Part shown: positions 56,039 through 64,000 of the stretch, piece by piece
Position numbering within the stretch: the stretch's first letter is position 1
How the letters are laid out: each line of letters opens with the position of its first letter
Origin: Aromatoleum toluclasticum ATCC 700605
GTDB taxonomy: Bacteria; Pseudomonadota; Gammaproteobacteria; Burkholderiales; Rhodocyclaceae
Direction: 5' to 3'
NCBI RefSeq assembly: GCF_000378245.1
Contig: NZ_KB899493.1
Coordinates: 310,001-374,000, forward strand
Length of the DNA: 64,000 nt
Position numbers and translations under genes: made by a program
The notes under the pieces: model-generated
Databases searched by the model: none
What the model saw: the letters and a program-made list of their open reading frames with translations, nothing else
Told to the model about the DNA's origin: nothing

Positions 56039-59000
56039 CTACTCTCTCTCGAACCCGCTCCCCGGCGTGAACTTCAGCGTCCGGGCGTTTTCCGTCACTG
56101 TCCGAACTACATTGTCCGGCGCGCCTGCCGGTATCTGGGCCTCGATCTCCAAGGTCACGGTCACATTGGATCCGATCAGCCCAGCCAGATGGGAAATGAC
56201 CTCCTCTGCGATTTTTCCTGCATCACGCCCGACGCGTGCTGCATCGAGGGTAATGGCCCCGTGGAAGCGCGTGGGTTTGGCCGCAGCCGGCGCTGCTCCC
56301 GTTGCACCGCCACCGCCGGTCGTACCTGTCGTCGCATCAGTACCGCCGCCGGTGACCTCACCGGCACCAGCGCCGTTGCCCGCAACTGCGGGTTCCGTAG
56401 CGATACGCTCGGCATCGATCTGTTTGCTCGCCACCTCCGGCTTAACGACCAGCCCTGGCGAATGCAAATCGGAAAGGCTGACCATCGTGCCGCCGCGAAG
56501 TCCCCTGTAGCGCCCGGCGTCCTCGTCGAAACCGTCCGCATATCCAAAACTGTCCTTTGACCACGTGAGTAGGTTCACGCCGTCGTTGATGGCATTCAGC
56601 AGCACCGCGGAATCCTTCAGACGCGGCAGGTAGAGATAGCGAGCGAAATCTTCGACCAGTTGCTTCACGGCAACATGCGTTTGTCGCTCACCACGCCAGA
56701 GCGGAATCTTGTCGAGTTCCATCTTCAACCGCGTTGGCGCAAAGCTGGTCAGATAGAGCTCGTCGGTGCGAAGCTTCTTGCTTGCACGCACTGCCAGCGC
56801 ATCGGAGCCGGAAAGGCGCAGCGCCTCCCATGTCACTGCCGCCTGTGGCGTGTTCTGCACCGGCACCAGGAGCCATTGATAGGTTTCGGGCAGGCGCGCC
56901 GTTGCGGCACTGTCGGCGGCTGCCATCTGCTGTTCAACCTGCTTCTTCTGGTGCGAGGTGAGGCCAAGTTGCGCCTCGTCCGTCATGATCGACTGCCAGG
57001 CCAGATACTTCCGCGCCGCTTCGTCGAGGTCCTGCAGCCGCGTCTTGTCGGCGGCTAGAAACACCAGGGTGTTGCGGTACAGGCGCGGCGAGTTGCCGCG
57101 ATTCTCCAGAATCGCCCTGGCGGCGGCTTCGGCCGCATTCCCTGCTTCCTTGCCATAGGGATGCGCGGTTCCCAGAACCACCAGACGCGCATCGAGATCG
57201 TCCGGCACATCGGCACCACCGGGCGGCATCGGATGGATGCGCTGGAAGTCGCCGGTCGAGGCCAGGTCTCTCTTGAGCCGGCGTTCCAGTTCGGCGACCA
57301 CCTTGTCCGGGTCGCGCTTCAACTGCTCGGCCCGGTCCTCGGCCAGCTTGGTCACCGTCGGCTGGGTCGAATACCAGTAATGTGGCCCATCGGCGTAGAG
57401 GTAGGTCGCGGCGCTCGCCATGCGGCGCAGGGCATCGCCAAATACCGCCGGCGATTCGCCCGGCATCACGCAGCCCAGCTTCACGCGGCGGTCCTCGATA
57501 CCCTTGTGCGCGGCCGCCGTGGTCGGCGCCGAGCCCATGTAGATGGCGCGGGCCACGCGCCGGCACGCGGAAAACTTGCCGAGGTTGGGTAGTTCGCTGT
57601 CGAGCTTGAGCGGCAGCGAGTTCGGCCCATCGACATCCTTCTCGATCACCGGCACCCAGTTATCCGAGAGGTAACGCGTCAGTTCCGACTGCACGCGCGC
57701 ATCGTCGATGGCCACGTTGGCCGGCAGGATTAGCGGATTACGGTCGCCCTTTTCCCACAGGCTATGGATTACGGCTGCCATCAGGCGCAACACCCCGCGC
57801 GTACGCTGGAATTTCACCAGCGCGCTCCAGTCGGTATAGAGCCGGTCGAAGATTTCCGGGTGGATCGGGTAGGCCGCCTTCAGGCGCTGCTCGTATTCGG
57901 CGTCGCGCGTTTCCGGCGGGAATTCCGCCTGCTGCGTGCGGTAGAAGTCAGCGAAGGCACGCGCCACCACGTCGCGCTGCTTGAACTGCTCGGCATCCGC
58001 CAGCGGCTGGAAGAGCCGGCGGCGCACAATCTCGAAACCTTCCTCGGCGCTGGCCGGGCGCCACGACGATTCCACACGGCCCACCACATTGCGCAGCCGA
58101 TCCAGAGCCTCGCGGCCGCGCGTGCCGCCCACTTCCACGTCGTCCGCGTGTGTGTGTGGCGAACCGGAGGTATCCGAGGCCGGCAAGCTGATCACCAGCA
58201 GGCAGTTCTTCGCCAGCTTGGCCGATTCGGTCAGCACCTGGGCGAAGGTGAATTGCGTCTCGAAGCCGCCGGCGGGCAGGTCGCTCTGGTCGTGCAGTTG
58301 GCGCGCATAGGCGACCCACTCATCCACCAGGACCAGGCAGGGGCCGTAGTCGTTGAACAGCTCGCGCAGCACATCGCCAGGGCTGGTGGCGCGCTCGTCG
58401 TCATTCTGCACGCGGGCATAGCCGGCTCGGCCACCCAACTGCCAGGCCAGTTCGCCCCACAGCGTATGCACCACCGTGCCATCGGGCTTGACGGACGGAT
58501 TGCCCGGTGAAATCTTGTTGCCCACCAGCACCACGCGGTTGGCCTTGGGCACGGTGCGTGCGCCAGCGGCCGCCAGCACCGCGTCGATGCCGGCCAACTC
58601 GGTCGGCGCAATGCCCGAAAATAGGTGATACAGCGCCAGCATCGAGTGCGTCTTGCCGCCGCCGAAGTTGGTCTGCAACTGAACGACCGGGTCGCCGCCA
58701 CCCACCGTCAGCCGGCGCACGGCACTGGTCAACATCTCCTTCAGGCTTTCGGTGAGATAGGTGCGACGGAAGAACTCCACCGGATTGCGGTATTCGTCGG
58801 TGCCCTCGCCCAGATGCACTTGCCACAGGTCGGCGGCAAACTCGGCCTGTTGGTAGCGGCCGCTGGCCACGTCTTCATGCGGCATCACCACTTCGCGCCA
58901 GGGCATAAGACTGCCCGTCACCCCGCTTTCGATGGCGATGCTCGATGACTTGCGCTTCTCGCCCCGCGCCTGCTCGTCAAATCGCACGCGAAGCAATTCC

Positions 59001-62925: not shown

Positions 62926-64000
62926 GCCGAAGCCCTCTTTGACAACACCTCGATCTGACGAATACGCAAGTCAGCCCGTTGCAGGGCGGGGTCGCTGCGG
63001 CCCAGTGCAGACTCCAGTTCCGAGCGCAGGGCCACGGCGGCGGCCGAAGCGTGTTGCCGTAATTCGACCAGTCCAAGGTAGGCATTGAGTTTGGCAACGG
63101 TTTCGATCTGCGGTGGGCGAGCATGGGTGCCAAAGACTTCAGCTAGAACCCGTGAGCTCTCGGCACCATAGGTACCGACATCCGCCGGCAAGGCTTCGAA
63201 CTGGTGATCGCCACCGAGCAAATGGAGATGCTCACGGCGAACGGTGGAGAGAACCGCCGGGCTGTGGGTCGAGACAATCAGTTGCGTGTTCGGAAAGGCT
63301 GCGCGCAGGCGCGGAATCACGGTCTGCTGCCAACGGGGATGCAGGTGTAATTCCACTTCGTCGATGAGCAGTATGCCGGGCGCCTCCAGTGGGTCCGACC
63401 AGTTCGGGTTGGCCTGCGCCAGACGACGGGCGAAATCGAGTGCGATGGCCAGCAGATTGCGATAGCCGTCGCTCAGTTGGGCGAGTTCCAATGTCTGGAT
63501 GGTGTCGCCGGCAAGGCGAATGTCCACCGTGAGGCGCGGCGGAGTGCCATCAAAATAAATCCGTTCCAGTCCGTCGATCATGACCGACAAGGCCTTTCGG
63601 ACAGCTCGGATATCCGCGTATGCCTGATTTTCTTTTGCATCGCTGCCAGGTTTGGCTCGCAGCTCGGAGTTTTCACGCAAATAAAACCATTGACACATCG
63701 ATGTGAAATTTGCGGCAGCATCGAGCGCGTCGGCAAAAGCCTTGTCCCGCGAAAAATCGAGCTTGAAGATGTCGCCCAGTTCGGGCGTGCCGCCCATGCG
63801 CCGAGTCGAACGGTAGTAGGCGACAACCGGCAGGGGAATCAGAGCCTGCGGCGCCTTGCCGATTTCACGCCACAGAGCCTGGACATAATGGTGCAGGTCG
63901 GATAGACGCTCCGAAGTGCTGTTGTTGTAGCCGAAGCGTGCTGGTGGCTGGAAGGTGATGTACTGAGACCATTCCAGTGCTGCGGGCTGCCCGCTCGGGG
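62922..64000 (-). CDS. AAA/RecF-like ATPase, PtuA-like (5' part outside window)
   Basis: The C-terminal 358 codons of an ATPase whose start lies beyond base 64000; the frame is open to the window edge. Seen are the ABC-type signature LSDGYRNLLAIALDFARRL, Walker B GILLIDEVELHLHPRWQQ and the switch STHSPAVLS, typical of SMC/RecF/OLD-like defence ATPases. The Walker A part is not visible. Together with the HNH gene it matches Septu PtuA-PtuB order. An internal ATG at 63797 is not the real start. Confidence 0.85.
   Translation of the reverse strand, partial: PSGQPAALEWSQYITFQPPARFGYNNSTSERLSDLHHYVQALWREIGKAPQALIPLPVVAYYRSTRRMGGTPELGDIFKLDFSRDKAFADALDAAANFTSMCQWFYLRENSELRAKPGSDAKENQAYADIRAVRKALSVMIDGLERIYFDGTPPRLTVDIRLAGDTIQTLELAQLSDGYRNLLAIALDFARRLAQANPNWSDPLEAPGILLIDEVELHLHPRWQQTVIPRLRAAFPNTQLIVSTHSPAVLSTVRREHLHLLGGDHQFEALPADVGTYGAESSRVLAEVFGTHARPPQIETVAKLNAYLGLVELRQHASAAAVALRSELESALGRSDPALQRADLRIRQIEVLSKRASA

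Follow-up and report, generated by a model that had tools for sequence, protein, structure and literature searches.

What is a Septu pair doing directly beside the methyltransferase and ATPase genes of another defence operon: do the four genes form one system, or has one system settled inside another? In the 64,000-nucleotide stretch of Aromatoleum toluclasticum DNA analysed here (the window), four genes follow one another on the minus strand almost without a break. They are ptuA, for the ABC/OLD-type ATPase of Septu (62922..64319, of which 62922..64000 lies in the window; 465 aa, with a start backed by the PADLOC models); ptuB, for the Septu HNH nuclease (62299..62925, 208 aa); hmaB, for a DUF1156 methyltransferase (59411..62302, 963 aa from an ATG start, the alternative listed start being a TTG at 62386 that would overlap the HNH gene); and hmaC, for a HEPN-DUF499 ATPase (56039..59404, 1121 aa). 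The spacings from ptuA to hmaC are -4, -4 and +6 bases, and both overlaps read ATGA, so that coordinates and junction letters agree with an earlier note that had described this arrangement from the sequence. That note had placed the four genes correctly but had taken them for the whole set: ptuA runs 319 bases past the end of the window, and six further minus-strand genes lie upstream of it. Beyond a 103-base gap come a PIN gene (64423-64980), a DUF4325 gene (64964-65326), a HATPase gene (65342-66214), a PemK gene with a putative GTG start (about 66211-66555), a MazE-like gene (66545-66799) and hmaA, which encodes a helicase-nuclease (66849-70451), all past the window end. The run from hmaA to hmaC thus holds ten genes on one strand, with hmaA and hmaB about 4.5 kb apart and seven genes between them, namely ptuA, ptuB and the five others. 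From the gene spacing we infer that the run is a single transcript; a scan for promoters and terminators did no better than on shuffled sequence (3 against a mean of 3.1, and 11 against 13.9). Long open frames on the plus strand at 47042-62332 of the window lie antisense to coding genes; they seem to result from high G+C content and are not counted as genes.

What do these genes encode? By PADLOC, Pfam, alignment to solved structures and conservation of key residues, the region is identified as a complete Hma (Type-1 BREX-related) system plus a Septu type I system. PADLOC scores are 1682 bits for HmaA, 1629.7 for HmaB and 1213.5 for HmaC over nearly full profiles, the HmaC match spanning residues 165-1113; the DUF1156/DUF499 pair, which had been read as a defence module, is thereby HmaB and HmaC. 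HmaA carries SNF2 and helicase domains in Pfam and, at its C-terminal end, NOV_C, for which we take DUF3883 to be an older name; Walker A, DEAH and D...ExK motifs are present. The Pfam match of HmaB is DUF1156, and D565, P567 and Y568 of its DPPY motif occur in 80 of 80 homologues. HmaC combines HEPN_Swt1 (1.5e-36) with DUF499 (6.7e-28), and the Rx4H residues of its HEPN domain are kept in 65 of 66 homologues (R94) and in all 66 (H99). Across 62 to 80 homologues the catalytic motifs of these Hma proteins are conserved with few exceptions, and DPPY, Walker A, DEAH, D...ExK and Rx4H presumably carry their customary meanings here. DUF3883 has been described as a REase-like domain (PMC3710099).

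HmaB is probably an N6-adenine DNA methyltransferase, having a DPPY motif and a PADLOC name that are both consistent with adenine. The protein is called an m5C methyltransferase in PMC8565338, and its type an N6-adenine methyltransferase in PMC12839542. HmaB sequences are most variable at about residues 421-540, between the SAM motif and DPPY, which is probably the target-recognition region. Two homologues, L051 and L060, are 95-100% identical in the first and last segments compared and 35% identical at 481-540, a difference that fits a swapped target-recognition region.

The Septu pair is equally well defined. PtuA scores 617.6 bits in PADLOC, matches AAA_21 in Pfam and aligns over residues 1-460 with the solved Septu PtuA 8ee4 (E 3.1e-46). 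PtuB scores 116.9 bits in PADLOC and 73 bits against TIGR02646 (cut-off 52.15) and aligns with 8ee7 chain C (E 2.4e-9); a Pfam search with this HNH protein gave no match. These scores bear out the Septu-like ATPase-HNH pair recognised at the outset. The Walker A K36 and D320/E321 of PtuA are invariant in 31 of 31 homologues; in PtuB, N78 occurs in 25 of 25 and H62 in 24 of 25 (the other has a gap), while the nearby H59 varies (16 of 25). In Septu EcB88, loss of Walker or HNH residues abolishes defence (cited with PMC11555353, PMC13096335). K36, D320, H62 and N78, matched by motif rather than by alignment, are of the residue types essential there, and the 16-residue spacing from H to N in PtuB is that of EcB88 H75-N91. 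Adjacent homologues of PtuA and PtuB, by which Septu type I is recognised, are present with an ATGA overlap.

The earlier note knew of no such combination, yet the pairing had been published: the 2021 work that gave Hma its name describes an operon often found next to Septu type I (PMC8565338), and fusion of HEPN to DUF499 in restriction operons had been noted in 2013 (PMC3710099). Hma corresponds to the Type-1, DUF499-centred BREX-related (BR) system (PMC8565338, PMC12839542), for whose core PMC12839542 proposes a mechanism, citing antiphage activity for the helicase. Our locus shares with it the core order A-B-C, the HEPN-DUF499 fusion, the DUF1156 methyltransferase and a helicase with a C-terminal D...ExK, but differs in the roughly 4.5 kb and seven genes, PtuAB included, that part hmaA from hmaB. 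It resembles Septu type I in its adjacent ATPase and HNH genes, its retained Walker and HNH residues and the absence of a flanking reverse transcriptase, but here the pair is nested in another defence operon. Other candidates were set aside. Three NCBIfam models that we infer to stand for Type-2 BR (HKD/PLD helicase, DUF3780) scored far below their cut-offs (DUF499, 162.8 against 1200; DUF1156, 110.7 against 1000; phospholipase D-like, 159.7 against 1100 bits). BREX was rejected on scores and gene content. ARMADA and DISARM (PMC12458937) are likewise antiviral operons with a helicase and a methyltransferase; HmaA reached 365.1 bits against DrmD, where the cut-off is 610, and ARMADA was dismissed on scores and gene content, PMC12458937 naming neither DUF499 nor DUF1156. 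The genes scanned yielded no YprA-type helicase. With ptuAB flanked by PIN and HmaB rather than a reverse transcriptase, Septu type II/retron I-A was discarded as well.

If Hma and Septu are both known, is the position of the one inside the other peculiar to this genome? A search of genome contigs with HmaB returned at least 582 relatives, of which the best 80 were used, so that the sample is biased to near relatives. An hmaA gene was found upstream, in the same orientation, in 66 of these 80 loci (14 dropped), and an hmaC gene downstream in 72 (8 dropped). Of the 66 loci with hmaA and hmaB among the best 80 of at least 582, 11 have the two genes no more than 250 bp apart and 55 have more than 250 bp between them, 45 of these more than 1 kb. 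Between hmaB and hmaC the median distance is 14 bp, with more than 1 kb in 18 of 72 loci; because genes also occur there, the slot between hmaA and hmaB is a preference and not a unique site. A second draw found HmaB in 16 of 398 genomes of the phylum, our own included, and an ORF of at least 100 aa between HmaA and HmaB in 8 of the 10 other loci where both genes were found; gene calls are mechanical ORFs, so such small numbers may be off. HmaB was also found at 9 loci of viral contigs and in 54 plasmid records. PtuA matches at E 1e-90 or better were confined to our genome when 399 genomes of its order and 369 of its class were searched; none of three pattern matches in viral contigs was confirmed, and plasmids gave no PtuA match at 1e-40.

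The slots hold a varied cargo. Their 116 ORFs fall into 61 clusters, whose names rest on one or two members each because Pfam scans covered 20 of the 116 and PADLOC 10 of these 20. Schlafen AlbA_2 proteins account for 10 ORFs in 9 loci and TmtA-like proteins for 8 ORFs in 7 loci; AAA_21 with RloB occurs in 7 loci, and GmrSD_N in 7 (two with identical HmaB) and in L055. HEPN, DUF4143 ATPase, dynamin-like and NYN proteins were found among the other scanned cargo, as were MazE/PemK pairs. PtuA with PtuB occupies 4 of the 66 slots (L055, L056, L082, L121) among the best 80 of at least 582. In the literature searched, supplementary files lying outside the search, we found no description of the hmaA-hmaB interval as an exchange slot, and the idea that Hma operons keep a position where different helper systems swap in and out may be new.

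Has the cargo shared the history of the genes around it? In a tree of 32 PtuA sequences, with free PtuA taken from Pseudomonadota genomes, the PtuA of our locus and those of L055, L056, L121 and L082 form one clade (support 97/98). Its members are 62-68% identical to our PtuA, against at most 49% for free PtuA; they come from Pseudomonadota and Chlorobiota and, among the 32 PtuA compared, lie only in such slots. PtuA of L016/L140 (G395), at 29% identity, represents a second, separate capture. The five-locus group was defined by cargo ahead of the Hma trees, and for the same five loci a single clade is rejected by HmaA (p-AU 1.65e-4, 27 rows) and by HmaC (p-AU 5.6e-72, 29 rows); the rows for these and for the smaller HmaB tests were hand-picked after larger trees and cover at most 31 of the 80 loci. 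In the HmaA tree our locus groups with three Chlorobiaceae loci, with L068 inside the group. HmaB gives a mixed picture: a test on 31 rows, with four of the five Septu rows and L121 absent, rejects a single clade (p 3.3e-4). The 87-row test does not (p 0.515), its rows lacking the three HmaB sequences of greatest length, that of the Septu locus L140 among them; nor does a test of three rows without L082 (p 0.825). Because HmaB trees and tests disagree, the claim of exchange rests on HmaA, HmaC and pair comparisons. Pairwise comparison is in line with exchange: L071 and L106 are 93% identical in HmaA and in HmaC and only 73% in HmaB, and they carry different cargo. It thus seems that specificity and cargo are exchanged while HmaA and HmaC form a more stable framework. 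The locus itself adds one more Hma and Septu pairing; the remaining interest lies in the candidate exchange slot and the apparently slot-bound PtuA clade, on small numbers.

The operon also looks like the cargo of an integrative element, as the whole run lies in a repeat-bounded stretch with an integrase. A tRNA-Met gene on the plus strand (55501..55577, ARAGORN) contributes its 3' part (55530-55577) as one copy of a 48-base repeat; the second copy, with one mismatch, is at L003:1737-1784 and adjoins a tyrosine integrase gene (L003:362-1594). The island so bounded is about 21.2 kb long and includes the entire ten-gene run and a DUF3987 gene. We regard it as probable that the locus comprises a complete Hma system in which PtuAB is exchangeable cargo between hmaA and hmaB, a second and separate layer of defence, carried on a tRNA-Met integrative island.

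How might the two layers work? HmaB would mark self DNA by adenine methylation, its variable region determining the motif, while the ATPase HmaC and HmaA, a Snf2 translocase whose C-terminal motif resembles PD-(D/E)XK, would find and cut unmarked DNA, the cutting itself presumably falling to HmaA. The HEPN domain of HmaC could serve as a backup RNase of last resort. PtuAB, presumably produced from the same gene run, would be triggered separately, cutting tRNA-Tyr or DNA so that the infected cell stops, and would help where a phage evades or inhibits the restriction core. Either substrate has a precedent (PMC11555353, PMC13096335): PtuAB of Septu EcB88 cleave the variable loop of tRNA-Tyr, with abortive infection; in retron-Eco7 PtuAB lead to loss of tRNA-Tyr, directly or indirectly being left open; retron-Eco4 likely has no tRNA target; and another Septu is reported to degrade nicked DNA (Li 2024, as cited in those sources).

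Could the connection be closer than cargo? By analogy, the hmaA-hmaB interval might be a dedicated effector bay and this PtuAB lineage specialised as a mobile guard of Hma, coupled to hmaB and cleaving tRNA or DNA when a phage inhibits or evades Hma. The model rests on the precedent of PrrC, a tRNA nuclease in ecoprrI that is triggered when its restriction partner is inhibited (PMC12707154); BrxU, embedded in a BREX island and acting independently of BREX, is the counter-example in the same source. Both resemble our locus in having an effector gene nested in a restriction locus, but here the surrounding core is an Hma system instead of BREX or a type I restriction system, and a guard trigger for PtuAB is hypothetical. 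We consider such a specialisation rather unlikely; were it true, many different effectors would share the bay and its trigger. Near-identical Hma backbones with different effectors amount to natural swap experiments, which can tell guards of a host restriction operon from mere neighbours.

Could PtuAB instead merely hitch-hike, as a system independent of Hma and functionally unconnected to it, although both travel on one mobile island and may even be transcribed together? In a published system Septu acts alone (PMC11555353, PMC13096335), and BrxU is independent of the BREX genes around it. Of 26 PtuA places outside our locus in 398 genomes, one is part of an Hma locus, and Septu therefore appears mostly free-standing; the other 25 showed no Hma gene beside them, although several contigs are short and three of the 26 places were viewed within 1.5 kb only. 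A mere neighbour of Hma, however, need not keep its position, and ptuAB has kept it: slot PtuA of Pseudomonadota and Chlorobiota form one clade, and the 4-base overlaps of ptuA with ptuB, and through ptuB with hmaB, recur in L055, L056, L082 and L121, which argues that they are beyond chance. The letters are ATGA at all seven junctions read, the ptuB/hmaB junction of L121 being known by coordinates only. A further 4-base overlap, of ptuA with hmaA, is found in L056 and L121 and also in L140, the separate capture. On this balance, hitch-hiking without any link seems doubtful to us, and we prefer to see PtuAB as exchangeable cargo forming a second layer.

The earlier note had gone further in the opposite direction and joined PtuA, PtuB, HmaB and HmaC into one system, in which HmaB would shield self DNA from PtuB. 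The two ATGA overlaps and the 6-base gap speak for such a unit, as does the retention of the overlaps in four other loci; but the core partner of HmaB and HmaC, HmaA, lies upstream with its motifs in place, PtuA is undetected in 62 of 66 Hma slots (best 80 of at least 582), most others being filled by different genes, and PtuAB elsewhere manages without a methyltransferase. On the position of HmaA and the 62 slots we set the single four-gene system aside as very improbable; the observation and its components stand, the claim of novelty falls, and the mechanism was only partly right. That PtuAB is a retron I-A effector pair, normally with a reverse transcriptase, that landed in Hma is scarcely credible, for although the best NCBIfam matches are the retron Ec78 PtuA and PtuB models, both fall below their cut-offs (272.9 against 500 and 83.9 against 150 bits) and the genes flanking ptuAB encode a PIN protein and HmaB.

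Two further gene groups share the slot with PtuAB. The HATPase/DUF4325/PIN cassette (L002:9423-11214, window coordinates 64423-66214, past the window end) could be a defence or toxin module not yet catalogued: PADLOC has no match for PIN and a weak DrmA match for HATPase (24.6 bits), and, of three other genomes out of 398 that encode a PIN homologue, two (L181, L182) repeat the order, the 3.5 kb covered at each giving no match to Hma or Ptu. The MazE/PemK pair (L002:11211-11799) is also found beside HmaB in other loci, between HmaA and HmaB at L077:1933-2503 (MazE 85%, PemK 70%) and again at L154:3269-3833 (71% and 68%), and L155:3093-3320 has a MazE match alone.
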